From: a virus
Direction: 5' to 3' (one strand)
IMG/VR virus record: IMGVR_UViG_3300009373_000137
Coordinates: 1-27,060 of that record
DNA length: 27,060 nt
Under the pieces are notes generated by a model. The model was not told the DNA's origin and made no database searches. It saw only the letters and a program-made list of their open reading frames with translations. Made by a program: the position numbers and the translations under genes. Below, one piece after another: positions 2,179 to 21,851 of this stretch. Numbering within the stretch: the stretch's first letter is position 1; every line of letters begins with the position of its first letter.

Positions 2179-3680
2179 AGGTGATCTGCGGCGACTGCCT
2201 GGAAGTGCTGCCGACGTTTGAGGGCGAATCCTTCGACGCGTGCGTGACCGATCCGCCCTACGGTCTGGAGTTCATGGGCAAGGGCTGGGACCACGGTGTT
2301 CCCGGCATCCCGTTCTGGCAGGCTGTCCTGCGCGTCCTCAAGCCCGGTGCTCACCTGCTGGCGTTCGGCGGCACGCGCACCCACCATCGCCTCATGTGCG
2401 CCATCGAGGACGCGGGATTCGAGATACGCGATACCGTGCCGGAATTGGGCGGTGAAGTGCAGATGCTCATGTGGCTCTACGGGCAAGGATTCCCGAAGTC
2501 GTTGGACGTGAGCAAGGCCATCGACAAGGCGGCGGGAGCAAAGCGAGAGGTTCTGGGGCAGCGCACAGGTGCTCAGGCAAAGTCGGATGGTTTGTATGGT
2601 CGCCCGGATACATGTGGAAATGCTTGGGGCAACGACAGGGGGGATGGTGTGAGTGAGTTCGATATCACCGCCCCTGCGACCGACGCGGCCCGCCAGTGGG
2701 ACGGCTGGGGGACTGCGCTCAAGCCCGCGTGGGAGCCAATAGTGCTGGCCCGCAAACCGCTCATCGGGACCGTCGCGGCGAACGTCCTAGCCCACGGCAC
2801 CGGGGCGATCAACGTGGACGGGTGCAGGATTGGGACTGAAGGCGGCACCACGCGGAGTCATCAGTCAGAGTTCCAGCATGACGGCGAATCCGGAAAGGTT
2901 CATGCAACGCGTGGGTATCGCACAGGCCATGACATAGTGCCGGTCGACTCCGGTCGCTGGCCTGCGAACGTCATCCTCACGCACACGCCGGAGTGCCGCG
3001 AGGTCGGGACGCGGAATGTTCAGGGTGCGCCCCATCTTGGACAGAAGAATCCGGACCTAACGAAGCAATATACCGGCGGCACATTCGGAGGTGGCCGAGT
3101 TACCCCGAGCGGTGGCTATGCCGACCCCGACGGCACCGAGACGGTCGCGGCGTGGGACTGCACCCCGGACTGCCCGGTGCGGATGCTGGACGAACAGAGC
3201 GGGGAGCGGGCTACATCGAAACCGGGCACTGTTATCAAGCGCGCATCTTCTAAGGGTGGACGGCGCTCTCAGAGTATCGGAGCCGAGTCTCGAACTGCAG
3301 GCGATGTGATGGTGGCCTACGGTGACACCGGCGGGGCGTCGCGGTTCTTCTACTGTGCGAAGGCGTCACGGCGGGAACGGGAGTACGGGCTGGAAGAAAT
3401 GCCTGCCGCTCACGGAGTAGACCGTGGCAAGGCCCGCAACGACCACCCCACGGTCAAGCCCGTCGCCGTGATGCGCTGGCTCGTGAGGCTGGTCACACCG
3501 CCCGGAGGCACCGTTCTGGACCCGTTCATGGGCTCAGGCACCACGAAGCTGGCGTGCATGGCGGAGCGGTTCGACTTCACGGGCATCGACCTGGACGCGC
3601 ACTACTGCGACATCGCCGAGCACCGGAAGTTACTGCCTGACGTGGAGCGCGAGGTAGCGCAGGCGGGGATGTCCCTATGA
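2175..3680 (+). CDS. DNA methyltransferase, beta-class amino-methyltransferase (DPPY type)
   Basis: This 501-residue enzyme would methylate an exocyclic amino group of DNA using S-adenosylmethionine. The catalytic DPPY is at ~26-29 and the SAM-binding FMGSG of DPFMGSGTT at ~449-457, with HPTVKP just before it. Catalytic motif first and SAM motif last defines the beta group, and DPPY favours N6-adenine over N4-cytosine. The ~400 residues between probably hold the target-recognition region. I chose GTG 2175 because it overlaps the previous stop (GTGA) and starts right at the conserved VICGDCLEVL; the longer open frame from 1845 overlaps the HTH gene. No restriction endonuclease is adjacent. The stop lies at the edge of a repeat shared with the next two methyltransferase genes. 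Confidence 0.88.
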   Translation: MKVICGDCLEVLPTFEGESFDACVTDPPYGLEFMGKGWDHGVPGIPFWQAVLRVLKPGAHLLAFGGTRTHHRLMCAIEDAGFEIRDTVPELGGEVQMLMWLYGQGFPKSLDVSKAIDKAAGAKREVLGQRTGAQAKSDGLYGRPDTCGNAWGNDRGDGVSEFDITAPATDAARQWDGWGTALKPAWEPIVLARKPLIGTVAANVLAHGTGAINVDGCRIGTEGGTTRSHQSEFQHDGESGKVHATRGYRTGHDIVPVDSGRWPANVILTHTPECREVGTRNVQGAPHLGQKNPDLTKQYTGGTFGGGRVTPSGGYADPDGTETVAAWDCTPDCPVRMLDEQSGERATSKPGTVIKRASSKGGRRSQSIGAESRTAGDVMVAYGDTGGASRFFYCAKASRREREYGLEEMPAAHGVDRGKARNDHPTVKPVAVMRWLVRLVTPPGGTVLDPFMGSGTTKLACMAERFDFTGIDLDAHYCDIAEHRKLLPDVEREVAQAGMSL

Positions 3681-3713
3681 CCGCCGCGCCTTGCACGGGC
3701 ACCGGGAGGTAGG
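3678..3713 (+). repeat. methyltransferase-associated direct repeat, copy 1 (36 bp)
   Basis: These 36 bp begin with the stop codon of the first methyltransferase and end just before the ATG of the second. They are identical to 4870-4905 and differ by one base from 6003-6038. The GGGAGG inside also serves as the Shine-Dalgarno of the cytosine methyltransferase at 3716. Confidence 0.9.
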
Positions 3714-3715
3714 AC

Positions 3716-4909
3716 ATGAAGGCCGTGTCGCTGTTCTCTGGTGTCGGCGGGTTTGAGATTGGCTTCGACCGCGCGGGCATCGACACAGTGCTACAAGTGG
3801 AGATCAACGAAGATTGTCGCGCCGTGCTAGCGCGGCACTGGCCGGAAGTGGAGCGGATAGCCGATGTGCGAGACGTGGGCATTGATACAGCGCGGTCGCG
3901 CGGGTGGCTCAAATCTGGAGATGCAGCGGGAGTTAGCCTACGCGATCAGGGGCGAGGGCAGGTACGGGGGCGAGAGGCAATTCATCATGTGCGAGACGTT
4001 CGGAGTGGCCGAGAATCAGAGCTTCGAGTGGCAGGCAGGAACGGACGACATCAGCCTGCGCGACCCGGCCCAGGGGTTGAACGCGAACCGCCACCCTGCG
4101 ATCTTGTCTACGGCGGGTTCCCCTGTCAAGACCTATCAGTGGCCGGAAAGCGGGCCGGTCTTGGGGGAGAGCGCAGCGGTCTCTGGTTTGAGTTTGAGCG
4201 GGTGCTGTCCGAACTGCGGCCACGATGGTGCGTCATTGAGAATGTTCGTGGACTCCTATCTAGCAACGGCGGAGCTGACTTCGCCGTTATCCTCAACGCC
4301 CTGGCTGAACTCGGGTTCGATGGTGTCGCGTGGGCGGTTCTGGACGCGCAGCACTTCGGAATCCCGCAACGCCGCCGCCGCGTGTTCATTGTCGGCGGTC
4401 CTGGAGCCGCAAGTGTCCGAACGGTACTATCTCTCTGTGAAAGCTGCGGAGGGAATCCTGAGACGGGCCGAGAAGCAAGGAAAGACATTGCCCACACAGT
4501 TAGAGCGGGCACTCAAGGACATCGCCACGACGGAGACCGAGACAACTACATAGCCCGGCCTCTCAGGGCGAACCGCACCAACCCTGACAGCTACGGCGAC
4601 GAGGGGAATGTGGTGGTAGCCAGTAGCCTGAACGCAAGGGACGCAAAGGGGCCGCTGCCGAGTCGGGACATAGGTACCGTGGTTGTGGAGCAGGCTTCTG
4701 TTCGCCGCCTCACCCCGCGAGAGTGCGAACGGCTGCAAGGGTGGCCCGACTTCTGGACGCGATGGCGCGCAGACGGCACGGAAGTCAGCGACTCGGGCAG
4801 GTACAAGATGATCGGCAACGGCGTTGCATCGCCAGTCGCGGAATGGATTGGACATCGACTGGTCGCGGTTGACCGCCGCGCCTTGCACGGGCACCGGGAG
4901 GTAGGGTAG
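3716..4909 (+). CDS. C5-cytosine DNA methyltransferase with an unusual insert
   Basis: This 397-residue enzyme transfers a methyl group to cytosine C5 in DNA. Motif I is FSGVGGFEIGF (~7-17), the catalytic PCQ of GGFPCQDLS is at ~136-138 (C137), ENVRG is at ~175-179, QRRRRVFIVG at ~218-227, and GNGVASPVAEWIG lies near the C-terminus. Between IADVRDV (~48-54) and CDLVYGGFPCQ there are about 70 extra residues of basic low-quality sequence (~55-125). In the +1 frame the same DNA reads as normal protein. A 13-bp repeat (ATGTGCGAGACGT at 3864-3876 and 3987-3999) brackets part of it. The C-terminal ~14 residues are encoded by a copy of the methyltransferase-associated repeat. The enzyme may or may not be active, depending on whether the insert is tolerated. 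Confidence 0.88.
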   Translation: MKAVSLFSGVGGFEIGFDRAGIDTVLQVEINEDCRAVLARHWPEVERIADVRDVGIDTARSRGWLKSGDAAGVSLRDQGRGQVRGREAIHHVRDVRSGRESELRVAGRNGRHQPARPGPGVEREPPPCDLVYGGFPCQDLSVAGKRAGLGGERSGLWFEFERVLSELRPRWCVIENVRGLLSSNGGADFAVILNALAELGFDGVAWAVLDAQHFGIPQRRRRVFIVGGPGAASVRTVLSLCESCGGNPETGREARKDIAHTVRAGTQGHRHDGDRDNYIARPLRANRTNPDSYGDEGNVVVASSLNARDAKGPLPSRDIGTVVVEQASVRRLTPRECERLQGWPDFWTRWRADGTEVSDSGRYKMIGNGVASPVAEWIGHRLVAVDRRALHGHREVG

Positions 4910-4911
4910 GA
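4855..4911 (+). repeat. methyltransferase-associated direct repeat, copy 2 (57 bp)
   Basis: This 57-bp stretch matches 5988-6044 with one mismatch; its core 4870-4905 is identical to 3678-3713. It encodes the C-terminus of the cytosine methyltransferase (VDRRALHGHREVG). In another frame it reads DWSRLTAAPCTGTGR followed by a stop, and copy 3 keeps that reading too, so it may derive from the end of an older gene. Confidence 0.9.
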
Positions 4912-4945: not shown

Positions 4946-5923
4946 GTGAATGGACCGATGGAGAACGTCCTAAACGACCTCGACTACAAGGAATGGATGA
5001 TTTCCACAAAGAGCATATGGCTGGGACCTGAGCCCGTGCATCGCAAGCTCCAGCAACTGACACTGGAGTTCAGCACCTGGCTTCGCGAACAAGGCCTAGA
5101 TGACGCGGGCGATATCCCCGAGCAACCGATCCCGAGTTTGCTGATCAGCGAATCACCGACTCGGGATAAGTTGAAGGTCCTCCACCCAGCCACGTTTCCT
5201 GAGCCAGACATAGAAAAGCTGATTCGCTTCTTCACCAAGAAAGGCGAACTCGTCGTCGACCCCTTCCTTGGGTCTGGCTCCACATGCGTGGCAGCACTCC
5301 ATGCGGGGCGAAGAGTCATAGGCATTGAGCTCTACGACCGATGGGCGGAGATTGCGCGGCAGAGAATCAAGGAAAGCTCCTCCCCCCAGTTGGATCTGTT
5401 CGGTTCCGTGGAATCCCCGGATGTGCGGGCCCTGCCGGAAGTGTGGACGGGGGACGCGTCCGAACTAGCCGCGAGCCTGGAGGACGGCTCAGTGGGATTC
5501 GTGGTGACGAGTCCACCGTATTGGGGGATTCTCGCCAAGAACACAGATCACAAGGTCAAAGCTGAGCGATTGGCCCACGACCGGCCCACCGACTACGGCC
5601 ATGACAGCCGGGACTTGAGTTCAATTGTCGACTATCAGCAATTCGTGGGCAAGATCGCAGGGGTCTTGGGCGCGTACGTGCCGAAGCTCCAGCCGGGTCG
5701 GTACATGGGTGTGATCGTGTCAGACTTCAGGCACAAGAGCGAATTCCACTCGTACCACTCTGATCTGGCTGAGTCCTTGATTCGTCAGGGGCTCACGTTG
5801 GAGGGCATCACGATTCTCGCCCAGACCAGCAAGAACCTCTATCCGTACGGCATCCCCTACGCCTTCGTGTCCAACATCCACCACCAATACGTTCTGATCA
5901 TGAGGCGTAGACAAGCCGTTTGA
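4946..5923 (+). CDS. DNA methyltransferase, SPPYW type (probable N4-cytosine)
   Basis: This 325-residue enzyme carries the SAM-binding motif DPFLGSGST at ~105-113, preceded by HPATFPE. The catalytic motif TSPPYWGIL follows at ~188-196. SPPY(W) is typical of N4-cytosine methyltransferases and differs from the DPPY of the first enzyme. The start is uncertain: GTG 4946 lies only 1 nt after AAGGA, while in-frame ATG 4958 is about 13 nt from it. The gene is bracketed by the 57-bp repeats at 4855-4911 and 5988-6044, which suggests it moved or was inserted as a cassette. No partner endonuclease is visible. Confidence 0.85.
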   Translation: MNGPMENVLNDLDYKEWMISTKSIWLGPEPVHRKLQQLTLEFSTWLREQGLDDAGDIPEQPIPSLLISESPTRDKLKVLHPATFPEPDIEKLIRFFTKKGELVVDPFLGSGSTCVAALHAGRRVIGIELYDRWAEIARQRIKESSSPQLDLFGSVESPDVRALPEVWTGDASELAASLEDGSVGFVVTSPPYWGILAKNTDHKVKAERLAHDRPTDYGHDSRDLSSIVDYQQFVGKIAGVLGAYVPKLQPGRYMGVIVSDFRHKSEFHSYHSDLAESLIRQGLTLEGITILAQTSKNLYPYGIPYAFVSNIHHQYVLIMRRRQAV

Positions 5924-5987
5924 CACGCGATGATCGGGGGCTTCCAAGTGTCGGGACACGAAAGCACAGTATCAGAGCGGGAGGACC

Positions 5988-6044
5988 TCGACTGGTCGCG
6001 GTTGACCGCCGCGCCTTGCACGGGCACTGGGAGGTAGGGTAGGA
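5988..6044 (+). repeat. methyltransferase-associated direct repeat, copy 3 (57 bp)
   Basis: This copy matches copy 2 over 57 bp with one mismatch (C to T at 6028). It lies in the non-coding gap after the third methyltransferase. A short hairpin (GTGTC-GG-GACAC, about 5948-5959) lies upstream in the same gap. The gap 5924-6043 shows no convincing gene. Confidence 0.9.
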
Positions 6045-6048
6045 TGAA

Positions 6049-6170
6049 GGTGCGTAACGTCGGAGTCGCTGGACGAACATATCGCGCTCAGGCGCAAACA
6101 GCCCCGGTTCCGGCTCTGATGTTACGCAACATTCGGCCAGCAGGGATCGGGGCTTTCTTTATGGTGGGTT
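6049..6170 (+). promoter_or_regulatory. inverted-repeat leader upstream of the primase-polymerase gene
   Basis: Two inverted repeats are present. GCGTAAC at 6052-6058 pairs with GTTACGC at 6121-6127, and AGCCCCG at 6100-6106 pairs with CGGGGCT at 6148-6154, followed by TTCTTT. The second resembles a long-loop terminator or attenuator just before the ATG at 6171. A 45-codon ORF (ATG 6044 to TGA 6181), with a Shine-Dalgarno-like GGTAGGGTAGG before it, spans the same bases; it could be a leader peptide or chance. I favour a regulatory or origin role because GTTACGC recurs at the far end of the gene. Confidence 0.4.
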
Positions 6171-8363
6171 ATGCAACCTGAACGCCTGAACGCTGCCCTT
6201 GGATATGCACAACGCGGCTGGCGCGTACTTGCGCTGTCACCGGGGGAGAAGATTCCCGTCTCAGACAAGAAGCTTCAGCCACACGGGAGTAAGTCTGCGA
6301 GCAAAGACCCGGAGCACATCACGGCACTCTTCCATCTCTACCCACTCGCCAATGTCGGCATCGCCACGGGCGAGGAATCCTTCACCGTCGTAGACCTCGA
6401 CAAGCGAGAGGCCGAAACCAACCTCAAGGCTGTCGGACTCATACCGCCTAAGACGATGACGGTTCGCACTCCGCGCGGGCTGCACCTCTACATCGAATAC
6501 GACAAACGCATCAAGCAGACCGCGGGGTTGCTAGACGGCGTAGACATCCGCGGAACCGGCGGATACGTTGTGGCCCCGCCATCCTCGGTGAACGGAACTG
6601 TCTACGAATTCGCGCGGGAGGTGCCGATCCTCGCATGGCCCGAACTGGCAGAGTTCGCAGCGAAGCCACCCATTGGCAGCAAAGCGCCCAAGGAACAGTA
6701 CGAGACCTGGGTGTCAGAACTGCTCACCAAGGGGGCTAGCCAGCCAGGGAGGGACCAGGCATGTACCCGGCTGGCAGGCTACTTCCGTGCCTTCGGCACG
6801 CCCAGAGATATAGCCCTCGCCATCCTCAAAGACTTCGCAGCCAAATGCGATCCGCCCTTCCCGGAAGCAGACGTTCTCAAGAAGGTCGCGTCGGTCTGGC
6901 GGTACGAGCAGGTCCGGCCCGCATCCTACAAAGGTCAAACGCTCATCGGCCCACAAGTAGACAAGTCGATCACCGGGCGGCTGCGCTTCATGTGGGCAAG
7001 CGAAGATATCTTTATCGAGGCCGACCGCATCAGAGAGCGGAAAGAGGGCATCAGCCTATGGCTTACCATCACCGTAGGCGCGGGCGGCGTCCTCTTCGGA
7101 CCAGTGTCACAGAACATCCTGCTACCGACGTTTGACGACCGCATGGTGAAGCAACTAAGCGAGCGCCATGAGGCAAACTGGCGGGCCATCCTCCAGCACG
7201 TCAGGGCAGAAGTGGTGAAGTCTCTGGAAGAAACAACCAGGGCGGTTGACATGGTGACGTTCCAGCCCAGCGCGCCATCCCCGTGGATCGCTTACCCGTT
7301 CGTGCGCCGGATGCAGCCAAACATCATCTTCGGCCACGGCAGCAGCGGAAAGACCACGCTGGGAGCAGCACTCTCTATCTCAATCGCTAGCGGAATCCCC
7401 CTCCTGCCTAGAGTAGACATTCGGGAGAAGGGGAACGTCCTGTACCTTGACTGGGAAACAGACGACGAAGAGTTCGCGACGGTCCGAGACGCCTTGCTTG
7501 CTCACGTTCCTGAAGCCGCAGCCAGCCTGAGCAACGAGGCCATCATCTACCGGCGACTCTCGGGGCCACTGGAATCGCAGATAGATCGCGTTATCAAAGA
7601 CGTAGTAGACCACGACATCTCAACCGTGTTCTACGACTCATTGGGCAAGGCTGTCGCCACCAATATCAACGAGCCAGATGCACCGCGTGTCTTCTATCAA
7701 TGCGTCGGCGCGACCGGGTGCTCCGCTGTCGTTTTTACCCACATCAGCTCGGAGTCGGTCGTTAGGAAGGGGTCTGAAATTAGACCCTTTGGGTCTGTCT
7801 ACTGGTGGGACTACGGACGCAACAACTGGTTTCTCAAGGCTTCGCAAGAACCGGGCGAGAAGTCCCTGCGGGTCGGCCTCTATCACTCGAAGATCAACCG
7901 CGGCCGGAAGCTCAAACCCTACGGCTATGAGATGACATTCGAGGAAGATGACGAACAGAACACGATAGGCATCTACTACCAGACCCGTGATGTCAGAGAG
8001 GACGAAGTGCTCGCAGAGGGCACATCACTGAAAGAACGCATCTTATACGTGCTGAAGCGAGGTCCGCAGACAGCCGGGGAGATAGCAGAGAGCCTAAACC
8101 ACGACCAGAACCGAACGCGGTCGTACCTCAACAAGCCAAGCTACCGGGATAGGTTGTGGATGCAAATCCCCAACACCAATCAGTGGACACTTATCTCTCT
8201 CCGCGACACCGGTTACGCGGGGGGTGACGTAACTAGTTCTCCCCCTAAGGGGGGGAGAGAACCTCTGGTTACGCGAGATAGTAACGACACTCCCGAAACC
8301 AGTGACGGAGACCGAGATCACTGGGATGCCTATGACAAGGGGGTGGCTGGTGAACCAGGCTGA
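6171..8363 (+). CDS. primase-polymerase/helicase fusion (replication protein)
   Basis: This 730-residue protein should prime and unwind DNA at the replication fork. Residues ~5-165 form an archaeo-eukaryotic-type prim-pol domain: VVDLD at 73-77 (D75, D77), GLHLYI with H105, and DIRGTGGYVVAPPS at ~125-138. A helical segment at ~175-250 resembles PriCT. Residues ~380-560 form a RecA-like NTPase of the RepA/AAA_25 kind, with Walker A GHGSSGKTT at 388-396, LYLDWET at ~424-430, Walker B FYDS with D489, and THISS at ~523-527. A small winged-helix-like segment and a low-complexity Gly/Asp tail follow. The start at ATG 6171 has GGTGGG 3 nt upstream. The tail coincides with a dense set of inverted repeats at DNA level. 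Confidence 0.9.
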   Translation: MQPERLNAALGYAQRGWRVLALSPGEKIPVSDKKLQPHGSKSASKDPEHITALFHLYPLANVGIATGEESFTVVDLDKREAETNLKAVGLIPPKTMTVRTPRGLHLYIEYDKRIKQTAGLLDGVDIRGTGGYVVAPPSSVNGTVYEFAREVPILAWPELAEFAAKPPIGSKAPKEQYETWVSELLTKGASQPGRDQACTRLAGYFRAFGTPRDIALAILKDFAAKCDPPFPEADVLKKVASVWRYEQVRPASYKGQTLIGPQVDKSITGRLRFMWASEDIFIEADRIRERKEGISLWLTITVGAGGVLFGPVSQNILLPTFDDRMVKQLSERHEANWRAILQHVRAEVVKSLEETTRAVDMVTFQPSAPSPWIAYPFVRRMQPNIIFGHGSSGKTTLGAALSISIASGIPLLPRVDIREKGNVLYLDWETDDEEFATVRDALLAHVPEAAASLSNEAIIYRRLSGPLESQIDRVIKDVVDHDISTVFYDSLGKAVATNINEPDAPRVFYQCVGATGCSAVVFTHISSESVVRKGSEIRPFGSVYWWDYGRNNWFLKASQEPGEKSLRVGLYHSKINRGRKLKPYGYEMTFEEDDEQNTIGIYYQTRDVREDEVLAEGTSLKERILYVLKRGPQTAGEIAESLNHDQNRTRSYLNKPSYRDRLWMQIPNTNQWTLISLRDTGYAGGDVTSSPPKGGREPLVTRDSNDTPETSDGDRDHWDAYDKGVAGEPG
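8212..8286. repeat. clustered GTTAC/GTAAC sites around a strong hairpin
   Basis: Within the 3' coding end of the replication gene, GTTACGC occurs at 8212-8218 and 8268-8274, and the inverse GTAAC at 8229-8233 and 8281-8285. Between them GTTCTC (8236-8241) pairs with GAGAAC (8257-8262) around a C-run/G-run stem with loop TAAG. The outer GTAAC/GTTAC also pair, extending the stem. The matching heptamer occurs upstream of the gene at 6052 and 6121. This could be an origin-like or regulatory site. Confidence 0.55.
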
Positions 8364-11502: not shown

Positions 11503-11805
11503 ATGACCATGATAAGGGTCACACAGAAAAGGTGCTTCAGGTGCAACCACTCATGGCTCCCGCGGAAGCCTGGAAAGCCAGCGGCCTGCCCGAAGTGCCA
11601 CTCGCCACTCTGGAGCAAGCCCAAGATCGATGGGTTCGGCAGGTTCGTCTCGCCCAAAAGACGGATAAGCAGGCCAACCCCAACCTCAGAAACCGTTATG
11701 GAGCGGATCAAGCGCGTCAAGCCAGAGTTCGTCGAGGAATCGTTTGACGCTGCCATGCGGGGCGAAGGTGACCTTCCGCTAGAAATGGACGTCAAGCGCG
11801 AGTGA
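11503..11805 (+). CDS. small zinc-ribbon protein
   Basis: This 100-residue protein (ATG 11503; ATG 11509 also possible) has C11-x2-C14 and C29-x2-C32 in the familiar layout RCFRCNHSWLPR...CPKCHSPLW, a zinc ribbon widespread in phages and bacteria. The C-terminal half is charged and helical. There is no clear Shine-Dalgarno. TTGCGC (11473-11478) and TACACT (11496-11501) are 17 bp apart and could form a weak promoter giving a nearly leaderless message; this is speculative. Confidence 0.7.
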   Translation: MTMIRVTQKRCFRCNHSWLPRKPGKPAACPKCHSPLWSKPKIDGFGRFVSPKRRISRPTPTSETVMERIKRVKPEFVEESFDAAMRGEGDLPLEMDVKRE

Positions 11806-11967
11806 GAGGATTTGACGGGGCAGGGTGGCGGCCTAGCGCGAGGGTCTCGGCAGTCATTGCGAAGGTGGTAGTGATGGCGTTTGTTTGCCGGAGTCACCGA
11901 CCCACAGTGCGGCACGGACACGAAGCGTGCGGGCTGTTGCAACCGATTCCGGCCCGCCCTGCCCCTG
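11806..11967. other. non-coding stretch with hairpins
   Basis: I see no convincing gene here. The only long open frame is Trp/Arg-rich and continues into the gene at 12222 with no good start. GCGGGC near 11927 pairs with GCCCGC at about 11951-11956. The stretch leads into the first structured element. Confidence 0.5.
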
Positions 11968-12133
11968 TATTTCGCAACCGTAGCGGCGTGCCAACGCCGG
12001 GGTTGAAGGTCCATGAGAGAACAGCCCAGTCACGTTCTTGGCAGGACGGAGCCTCATGGGATGATAACCGGGACTGGCGGGACATCTTCTGCGAGGAAGA
12101 CAGGTATGCCGGGTGGGGAATCCGGCCTGCGGT
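11968..12133 (+). ncRNA. candidate structured RNA, element A
   Basis: The element reads in order: leader TATTTCGCAA (11968-11977); closing stem P1 CCGTAG (11978-11983) pairing with CTGCGG (12127-12132, one G:U); P2 CGGCGT-GCCA-ACGCCG (11984-11999); linker GGGTTGA (12000-12006); a stem CCATGAG/CTCATGG around 12011-12056 with an inner AGAAC/GTTCT; TCTTC-TGCGAG-GAAGA near 12087-12102; and P5 GCCGG(GTGGGGAAT)CCGGC (12108-12126). Element B repeats leader, P1, P2, linker and P5 in the same order, with P2 changed in sequence but still paired. I cannot name a known RNA family. The strand is taken from the surrounding genes. Confidence 0.55.
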
Positions 12134-12171
12134 TGTTCAGCGGCCTACCGGCTGTGACAGGTGGGGCAGAT

Positions 12172-12201
12172 GGTGGCAGGGTAGTTTCTTACCCACCCAC
12201 C
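12172..12201 (+). other. strong hairpin before the small conserved gene
   Basis: GGTGG (12172-12176) pairs with CCACC (12197-12201) and GGGTA (12179-12183) with TACCC (12190-12194) around a GTTTCT loop. It is followed by TATATCGCAAA and then the GGGGGAG Shine-Dalgarno of the gene at 12222. It could control translation or act as a processing site. Confidence 0.6.
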
Positions 12202-12221
12202 TATATCGCAAAGGGGGAGAC

Positions 12222-12572
12222 ATGGAAAACGTAACCGTCCCGAAGGCCGAGCTGTTAGAGGCTCTGAGGAAGAATCGTGCGGGCCATCGCACGGTATTCG
12301 AGAAAGCACTGAGAGGTTGGCGGGCAACCGTCATTGAGGAACTGGACCGGCGTCTAGCCGACGCACGGGCCGGTCGCAAAGTGGCGGCTGTCTTCTCAAT
12401 TCCCGAACCAGAGGACCATACTGGCGATTACGACCGGGTCATTCTCATGGTCGAGATGGAAGTGAACGAAACCATCTCCATTCCAGAGCATGACTTCAGG
12501 TGCTACGTGATGGACGACTGGGAGTGGAAGGCCCAGTGGACAGCCTCAAACATCGGGTACTTGGGCAGGTAG
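12222..12572 (+). CDS. conserved hypothetical protein
   Basis: This 116-residue protein starts at ATG 12222, behind AAGGGGGAGA; the open frame extends upstream to 11802, but that part lies across the structured element. It is a charged protein with a long helical N-terminal half (VPKAELLEALRKNRAGH, FEKALRGWRATVIEELDRR) and a C-terminal half with IPEPEDHTGDYDRVILMVEM and YVMDDWEWK. I recall this pattern as a widespread hypothetical family in phages and bacteria with no known function. It is flanked by the two structured elements and by the repeated CCACCTATATCGCAAA (12197-12212 and 12574-12589). Confidence 0.75.
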   Translation: MENVTVPKAELLEALRKNRAGHRTVFEKALRGWRATVIEELDRRLADARAGRKVAAVFSIPEPEDHTGDYDRVILMVEMEVNETISIPEHDFRCYVMDDWEWKAQWTASNIGYLGR

Positions 12573-12573
12573 T

Positions 12574-12690
12574 CCACCTATATCGCAAACCGCAGCCCGC
12601 GGCAGCGGGGGGTTGAGCATCCGAAAGGGTTGTTAGGGAAGTCTGCCGACTAGTCCCGTCAGAAGCCGGGTGGGGAATCCGGCCTGCGGT
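12574..12690 (+). ncRNA. candidate structured RNA, element B
   Basis: The order is: leader TATATCGCAAA (12579-12589); P1 CCGCAG (12590-12595) pairing with CTGCGG (12684-12689); P2 CCCGC-GGCA-GCGGG (12596-12609); linker GGGTTGA (12610-12616); a stem ATCC-GAAA-GGGT with a GNRA loop; a stem GGGA/TCCC enclosing GTC-TGCC-GAC; and P5 at 12665-12683, identical to that of element A. P5 plus the adjoining 3' end (12665-12690) is a perfect 26-bp match to 12108-12133. The element is shorter than A (about 100 against 155 nt inside P1). Confidence 0.55.
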
Positions 12691-12697
12691 GAGCACA

Positions 12698-12778
12698 GCA
12701 GCGGGTGGTAGCGGCCCATGGTCCTAGTGGCCTCAAGCAGACCGTTCACCGCATATTGGCTTGCGGGCCACCCGCTGC
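12698..12778 (+). other. large inverted repeat before the phosphoesterase gene
   Basis: GCAGCGGGTGG (12698-12708) pairs perfectly with CCACCCGCTGC (12768-12778). Inside, GTGGCC (12727-12732) and CAAGC (12734-12738) can pair with GGCCAC (12766-12771) and GCTTG (12759-12763). The two pairings share bases, so alternative folds are possible. There is no U-run after it, so a simple terminator is unlikely. It directly follows element B and precedes the ribosome-binding site of the next gene, so it may control that gene. Confidence 0.6.
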
Positions 12779-20604: not shown

Positions 20605-21851
20605 TTGTCAACCCACCTCATACCTTGCGGCGTCCCCATGCGCGCCATCGCCCTTTGCGCGATGCCCTCCCACCTATCCGCTTCCTGATGCGCCACCTCA
20701 CGCCTATCAGAGAGCCTGTCGCCCGTCGCACGCATAGCGATGGCCGTGGCTTTGGCGATTATCCAAGCAGGTACGATATCGCACTCGGTAGCATCTGCGT
20801 TCAACTCCGTTGGCTTCTGAGCACCCGTGAGTTTCAACCAGTGGTACGAGGGCGGACCATAGTCAAAGACGAGTTCTCGCGCGTCCGAATCAATTGACCA
20901 GTGGTTCCGGTTGATTGGAACCCACGTGCCCGTGTTGTCCATCGCAGCCTGAACGTGGTCGATCCAAAAGTAGGCGTCTGCGAGGTCCGTAACTTGCACG
21001 AGGGCGACGGAGATGATGGCGGTATCTAGATGCGGGTTTGCAAGCGCCACCCTGCATCGCTTCCACGTATTCGCAACCAGGGCTGGAACCGAGAGGTCGT
21101 CTGTCGAGGAGGCCCCATCTGCCGTAGCGGAAAGACGCAGCACCAAATCCCCAGCCGAAGTCGCCACGGTGCTCTTTATCCAGAACTCGACGTGCGTGTA
21201 GCCGGAGAGGTCTAGCGAGACTACCTCGGAGGCCAGAACGGTGTCTGCGCCAATGCTGACCGTGGCGAAACGGTTGGAGGCAGCCCCGTGGCGGCAATCC
21301 TCGTCGTCAAGAACGACCGTGACGCCAGAAACCGTTTGCTCATTCCATGCGTCGTCACACTCTTCGATGTTCTCGCCCGTGGCCGAAGCCAGAACCTCCA
21401 CCTTCCGTATCCCAATCACCGTCGAGGGAATGGCGAAGCTACGGATGCTTTGCCCTGTGTGAAGACTCTCGTCGGTTACTGATGGCGCACCCTTGCGCGG
21501 GACAGAGCGAATCGCCTGGTTGATGGCGTTGTGAACCAGCGCGGGACGAACGTCACCATCCCAGAGTTCGTAGGTGTCGCCATCCGCCGTGGCGGTTAGG
21601 GCATCCCCACGTATGGTCCCCGTCGTAGTGCCTCCGTCGTAGTCATCGACCGGGCGTACCTTTGCATCGTTGTTCCCAGACGTGCCCCTCCACCACTTCC
21701 CGTTGATGTAGTCATCGGAGTTCTCAAGCTCCGCGTCTACCCACGTAGTGGTGCTTCCTGTGCCCGTACAGGTGCCCAGATAGAGACAGCCGAGGTTGTA
21801 CCCTATACTTACGGCTATCTCTTCCCTCGTTTGACTGATGAGGGTCGCCAC
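20601..21851 (-). CDS. adaptor-like structural protein with an inserted carbohydrate-binding-like domain
   Basis: The 416-residue protein starts at ATG 21851. Its ends resemble a head-tail adaptor: an N-terminal TREEIAVSIGYNL helix and a C-terminal helical part (AWIIAKATAIAMR...EADRWEGIAQRAMARM). Between them, residues ~165-305 form a jelly-roll-like domain (VVSLDLSGYTHVEFWIKS, LVLRLSATADG, WKRCRVALANP, AYFWIDHVQAA) of the kind found in CBM4/9-type carbohydrate-binding modules. The domain could bind host surface sugars or stabilise the neck. The assignment is from pattern only. Confidence 0.7.
   Translation of the reverse strand: MATLISQTREEIAVSIGYNLGCLYLGTCTGTGSTTTWVDAELENSDDYINGKWWRGTSGNNDAKVRPVDDYDGGTTTGTIRGDALTATADGDTYELWDGDVRPALVHNAINQAIRSVPRKGAPSVTDESLHTGQSIRSFAIPSTVIGIRKVEVLASATGENIEECDDAWNEQTVSGVTVVLDDEDCRHGAASNRFATVSIGADTVLASEVVSLDLSGYTHVEFWIKSTVATSAGDLVLRLSATADGASSTDDLSVPALVANTWKRCRVALANPHLDTAIISVALVQVTDLADAYFWIDHVQAAMDNTGTWVPINRNHWSIDSDARELVFDYGPPSYHWLKLTGAQKPTELNADATECDIVPAWIIAKATAIAMRATGDRLSDRREVAHQEADRWEGIAQRAMARMGTPQGMRWVDN

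Follow-up and report, generated by a model that had tools for sequence, protein, structure and literature searches.

Loop-loop contacts within a junction closed by a P1 stem are found in the purine, lysine and cobalamin riboswitches. Integron attC sites, for their part, lie between codirectional genes right after stop codons, with ends that are conserved per genome and an interior that is variable. In phages, the put RNA of HK022, about 70 nt long and made of two stem-loops, acts alone through the zinc-binding domain of the polymerase (PMC9378689).

The window analysed here, a whole virus record of 27,060 bases, contains two copies of one structured RNA, elements A and B, which can be compared with each of these systems. 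Like the purine, lysine and cobalamin riboswitches, this RNA has a closing stem, abutting hairpins and kissing loops, and its P5 hairpin resembles the cobalamin hairpin by eye. However, the Rfam models of these riboswitches give no match, and the interior, the linker and the conserved loop are different. With attC sites, the phage elements share the location after stop codons, ends that are alike throughout a genome and a variable interior, but they have a multibranched, RNA-type fold with a conserved canonical interior, the stem is entirely different between genomes and most records lack an integrase. As in the put case, one deals with a phage-borne structured RNA present in few copies per genome, located in operons before unrelated genes and with no dedicated protein seen. 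Unlike put, the RNA is larger (about 80-200 nt across the family), carries a closing stem, a kissing loop and an invariant P5 loop, and shows no terminator enrichment. HEARO and transposon guide RNAs are also mobile-looking structured RNAs of similar size. Finally, some copies adjoin tRNA genes, which recalls phage tRNA genes and theta ribozymes (PMC10879173), but no ARAGORN tRNA and no Rfam ribozyme was matched at the elements.

The two elements are organized as follows, the kissing hairpins being assigned by sequence reading.

11974-12136, plus strand: element A (72.5 bits with the R1 model; alignment A2)
11974-11983 and 12127-12136, plus strand: arms of P1 of element A
11984-11989 and 11994-11999, plus strand: arms of P2 of element A
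12000-12006, plus strand: linker GGGTTGA on the 3' side of P2 of element A
12033-12048, plus strand: putative kissing hairpin of element A, CGTTC-TTGGCA-GGACG, whose loop pairs with the P2 loop GCCAA (11990-11994)
12108-12112 and 12122-12126, plus strand: arms of P5 of element A, with the loop GTGGGGAAT at 12113-12121
12586-12693, plus strand: element B (68 bits with the R1 model)
12586-12595 and 12684-12693, plus strand: arms of P1 of element B
12596-12600 and 12605-12609, plus strand: arms of P2 of element B
12610-12616, plus strand: linker GGGTTGA on the 3' side of P2 of element B
12640-12651, plus strand: putative kissing hairpin of element B, AGTC-TGCC-GACT, whose loop pairs with the P2 loop GGCA(G) (12601-12605)
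12665-12669 and 12679-12683, plus strand: arms of P5 of element B

All the parts named in the original prediction, that is the leaders, P1, P2, the linker and P5, were recovered in both elements, two of them with amendments. The leaders (TATTTCGCAA at 11968-11977 in A, TATATCGCAA at 12579-12588 in B) are indeed present but they are not a feature of the family, the motif being also found at 12202-12211 before the small gene. P1 had been described as a stem of 6 bp; the stem exists, though with 10 positions in A and a family mean of about 11.8. Its 5' core is CCGTAG in A (11978-11983) and CCGCAG in B (12590-12595), both opposite CTGCGG, and P2 pairs CGGCGT with ACGCCG in A and CCCGC with GCGGG in B. 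The 26-nt 3' end, GCCGGGTGGGGAATCCGGCCTGCGGT, is identical in A (12108-12133) and B (12665-12690). The kissing partner had been overlooked: the L2 loop of A, GCCAA, faces TTGGC at 12038-12042, and that of B, GGCAG, faces CTGCC at 12643-12647, so that neither half of this contact is common to A and B, each element being matched within itself. TCGCAA followed by GGGTTGA at a distance of 5 to 30 nt occurs twice in the window, versus 0.04 expected, and none of 100 shuffles contained two occurrences. Single-sequence folding only mildly beats shuffled sequences (z-scores of -2.07 for A and -1.60 for B). Because these scores are unremarkable, the case rests on homologues.

For this purpose, IMG/VR was scanned with sequence patterns and the matches were then scored and aligned with the R1 model. 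Three viral contigs were retrieved with a pattern derived from the 3' hairpin common to A and B, and 91 with a looser one. Most of the latter matches lie in intergenic DNA of unrelated contigs, where gGNGCCGGGTGGGGAATCCGGCc is followed each time by a different sequence. This variable stretch pairs with an upstream segment that directly precedes another conserved block, CGGCGTGGCAGCGCCGGGTAAG. Scanning independently with the latter brought members with an altered 3' hairpin, such as GCCAG..CTGGC in L117 and TCGG..CCGA in L108. Altogether, the search of metagenomic phages proposed with the original prediction, carried out here with patterns, revealed the RNA in about 70 further viral contigs, with 81 aligned model hits; the 49 records searched with the model hold 1-3 copies each. 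Across the family, the linker has the consensus GGGTAAG/GGGTTGA and the P5 loop, GUGGGGAAU, is near-invariant. Among about 85,000 bacterial and archaeal genomes, only 2 contigs were found, both from MAGs, and a model search of 148 + 150 genomes from the phyla of these two MAGs gave nothing beyond them. INPHARED phages yielded no credible match: a 36-nt BLAST probe found nothing and a second probe gave weak matches only, two of which, one from a phage of Roseobacter and one from a phage of Raoultella, did not match when rescored with the model. Weak matches were also obtained in PLSDB plasmids, and the two checked with the model (E of 0.8 and 0.92) were not credible. The exact element sequence was not found in open papers. 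The family is apparently restricted to uncultivated phages.

Covariation was assessed on two alignments, A2 with 37 members, selected partly by P1 pairing, and A3 with the 81 model hits, fitted to the model. In A2, 96.1% of the cells are paired (74.8 after shuffling and at most 42 after sliding), and double changes occur at 14 of the 21 pairs, with a score of 0.589 as compared with 0.167 for shuffled and at most 0.139 for slid alignments. In A3, 95.5% of the cells are paired and 18 of 21 pairs show double changes, distributed over P1 (10/10), P2 (5/6) and P5 (3/5). Since the members of A2 had been chosen in part by P1 pairing, P1 was retested without that choice, its arm positions being set in 34 members by the P2 and P5 motifs. 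An average of 8.65 of 9 pairs is formed under these conditions, versus 4.49 (sd 0.26, maximum 5.68) with permuted arms. Moreover, in the sense orientation G-T cells (129) far outnumber A-C cells (19), which indicates that it is the sense strand that folds, as expected of RNA. P1, P2 and P5 thus all covary among homologues, as anticipated when the elements were proposed to be a selected RNA fold, and that A and B are such a fold is practically certain.

The loop of P2 is usually GGCA, with GTCA, GACA, AGCA, GGTA and GCCA as variants. Together with the next base, it is complementary to 5 nt of the variable middle, often placed inside a hairpin loop. This complement is present in 31 of the 37 members, versus 16.8 (sd 2.3, maximum 25 in 2000 permutations) when loops are permuted and 6.1 (sd 2.2, maximum 14) when middles are shuffled. 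Among members with a loop other than GGCAG, 12 of 16 contain the complement of their own loop and 3 of 16 that of GGCAG. The held-out members behave similarly (38/44; permuted 20.2, sd 2.8, maximum 30 of 1000). Four parts of the architecture are therefore shown by covariation: P1, P2 abutting P1, a middle hairpin kissing the P2 loop, and P5 abutting the other side of P1. In one member (L044, 3206-3367, minus strand), a degenerate tRNA-like sequence occupies the middle of the RNA, with a putative kissing hairpin in its D-loop as read from the sequence; ARAGORN called no tRNA or tmRNA at the elements, including this tRNA-like middle.

The elements had initially not been matched to a known family. 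Rfam 15 gave no match in the window at the gathering threshold, a single sub-threshold chance match on the other strand in a search of 1.1 kb at E<=10, and nothing at the elements of the homologue loci. The suggestion of a HEARO or transposon guide RNA was not borne out: besides the lack of an Rfam match, no TnpB-type zinc-ribbon domain passed the cut-off in 41 records, with one sub-threshold match. The IscB-domain search was silent in the 41 records, but so was its control. The RNA family is new and matches no known family tested; unpublished or supplementary lists could still contain such an RNA. A strongly covarying RNA family with a varying kissing loop is thus absent from Rfam.

The position of the elements gives indications on what they may do. 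Out of 73 elements, 32 have their start at -15 to +60 nt relative to a stop codon on the same strand, mostly within 22 nt (control 15.5%), and 36 of 60 are followed within 90 nt by a ribosome site and a start codon (control 19%). The upstream gene is divergent in 3 of 60 cases. An element usually begins a few nucleotides past the stop codon of one gene and precedes a second, codirectional gene, on the transcribed strand. The downstream genes encode unrelated small proteins, and the search for a common neighbour protein gave a largest cluster of 4 loci. In L048 and L061, the element and the ribosome site are common whereas the flanking genes are unrelated; in L028, L067 and L089, the element and the downstream gene are retained behind unrelated upstream genes. 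Beside one copy (L004, 2060-2480, minus strand), a DGR-type variable protein (YWSSTTYADYTYNAW..) was noticed by eye directly before the element, in a record without reverse transcriptase.

Considering these properties, we tentatively favor the idea that A and B are compact four-helix RNA domains of intercistronic spacers, which may act in cis on a polycistronic phage mRNA. The domain would fold co-transcriptionally, the kissing loop would lock the fold, and P5 together with the GGGU linker would offer a fixed surface to a protein, either the ribosome, RNA polymerase or an RNase. The 5' end, the stability or the translation of the accessory gene that follows would thereby be determined. As for P1, its genome-specific sequence would either be recognised by a factor specific to the phage or be kept alike by recombination. 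With such a cis action, phage genes would be under a so far unrecognised level of control. A small molecule bound by the junction that the kissing loop holds together might also be imagined. A P1-closed junction, a covarying kissing loop, a nearly invariant loop and linker and a location just before the ribosome site would suit a riboswitch, but with unrelated downstream genes, no alternative P1 pairing identified and an external loop whose near-invariance equally fits docking of a protein or an RNA, this is very unlikely.

Several observations speak against the cis reading. Phage genes being dense and codirectional, an independent spacer RNA would also precede a gene. The conserved interior calls for a conserved partner. 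Furthermore, some copies are not leaders: L026 abuts a tRNA-Ala gene, L034 comes about 12 nt after tRNA-Trp, L036 precedes a tRNA cluster, L160 is located 25 nt behind a tRNA, and in L071 and L039 a terminator comes next. These tRNA-adjacent copies, the terminator found 40 nt past the element of L071, the strong tertiary constraint and the absence of a constant neighbour gene would fit a structured phage RNA acting in trans, as a decoy or as a ribonucleoprotein component, processed from operon transcripts and placed before genes only incidentally. If so, a new phage ribonucleoprotein or decoy would be at hand. Yet the elements usually lack their own terminator or a clear promoter, and up to eight differing copies per genome at gene boundaries would be unusual for such an RNA, so that a trans role appears rather unlikely. 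In L071 (13463-13581), the terminator-like hairpin after the element is accompanied by another one just before it, as seen by eye. Intrinsic termination by the element itself was considered and rejected, P1 being without a following T-tract.

A further possibility would be an RNA-only antiterminator of the put type, in which the nascent RNA, bound to the polymerase, would keep it from pausing or terminating in early operons. The elements are codirectional within operons, most of the larger neighbours that were tested are DNA-metabolism genes and some are terminases, and a structured RNA with an invariant loop and variable stems in few copies per record is reminiscent of put, which needs no other factor than the polymerase it contacts. 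However, terminators downstream are barely above expectation (3 in 68 elements), the larger size and the kissing loop set the phage family apart, and series of up to eight copies would be left unexplained. Antitermination is thus improbable.

The closing stem shows another regularity. In 6 of the 9 pairs of copies from the same contig, at most two of eight P1 positions differ, as against 5.8% of between-contig pairs, while the middles of same-contig pairs are as dissimilar as random ones (0.36-0.65 versus a background of 0.48, sd 0.09). Searching with a genome's own stem arms uncovered extra elements with non-canonical interiors; foreign arms gave 0.088 per locus. In the L043 phage, eight framed elements line up at gene boundaries on one strand within 3.7 kb, and several of them begin 4-14 nt past stop codons. 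The same search gave four in the L021 phage, two with identical 14-bp stems in L044, and two each in L040, L070 and L039. Conversely, L031 and L071 have an identical interior and a P1 changed with compensation. Duplication followed by slower change at paired bases could account for part of the stem sharing, not for unrelated interiors. P1 as a guide to targets elsewhere in the genome was also envisaged and discarded, the outside matches being partly more element copies and the rest scattered. In L178 (381-4058, minus strand), the stem ATGGCGG/CCGCCAT is identical in eight elements whose interiors differ; two of these elements, 68 nt long, are alike and may represent a second interior type.

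It is possible, though doubtful, that some phages punctuate their operons with arrays of framed RNAs, in which one genome-specific closing stem, read by a factor particular to the phage, would surround exchangeable domains. The domain of the window, with P2, the kissing loop and the P5 loop, would then be the most widespread interior found. We know of no obvious precedent for a genome-specific stem around changing interiors, and with such arrays the expression of phage genes, or gene cassettes, would be organised in a new, modular and RNA-based way. Sharing of P1 within a genome despite differing interiors, sites after stop codons and elements common to unrelated gene contexts would also be explained by a folded single-stranded DNA recombination site akin to attC, with stem ends recognised by an enzyme in a genome-specific manner, a free interior, and the gene plus its site forming a movable cassette. 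But no enzyme is consistently present: in 41 incomplete records, a tyrosine recombinase (Phage_integrase domain, the integron type not being distinguished) occurs in 8, and Y1 HUH and reverse transcriptase (DGR or retron) in none. With, in addition, a conserved canonical interior and an excess of G-T that suits RNA at least equally, recombination sites have little probability. A DGR or retron RNA was likewise rejected on the 0/41 records with reverse transcriptase.

Around A and B, the window contains the following features.

12222-12572, plus strand: small gene phrog_34511, a context gene between A and B, outside the RNA family
12197-12212 (before the small gene) and 12574-12589 (before B), plus strand: 16-nt exact repeat CCACCTATATCGCAAA
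11817-11965, plus strand: possible neighbour of A, of degenerate or non-canonical type, multibranched, with a 12-bp closing stem
12698-12778, plus strand: possible neighbour of B, of degenerate or non-canonical type, beginning 4 nt after B, with a 12-bp closing stem

The single small gene said to be flanked by the two elements is thus phrog_34511. The RNA was not found in the records of four of its relatives, so the gene is not part of the system. An open frame (11802-12572) crosses A into the small gene and leaves element B uncovered. Known relatives align only from the ATG at 12222, and a coding explanation of A is rejected on this ground; no known conserved frame extends across the elements. 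The CCACCTATATCGCAAA repeat may be a promoter or a recombination seam of this phage. The stretch at 11817-11965 begins about 12 nt past a stop codon, ends 8 nt before P1 of A, and is the third-best model match of the window, a weak one (11.9 bits, E of 0.48 over the window); the score of 12698-12778 is also weak (8.1 bits). That both are further stem-closed elements adjoining A and B is suggestive only. Elsewhere in the window, a 62-nt repeat, ACCGCCGCGCCTTGCACGGGCAC(C/T)GGGAGGTAGG, occurs near three gene ends (3658-3719, 4850-4911 and 5983-6044) in copies that are 69-97% identical; it is a second repeated intercistronic element of the same phage. Among inverted repeats with long spacing, the two that score highest in the window lie outside A and B, at about 5900-6200 (score 42) and 21420-21740 (score 36).
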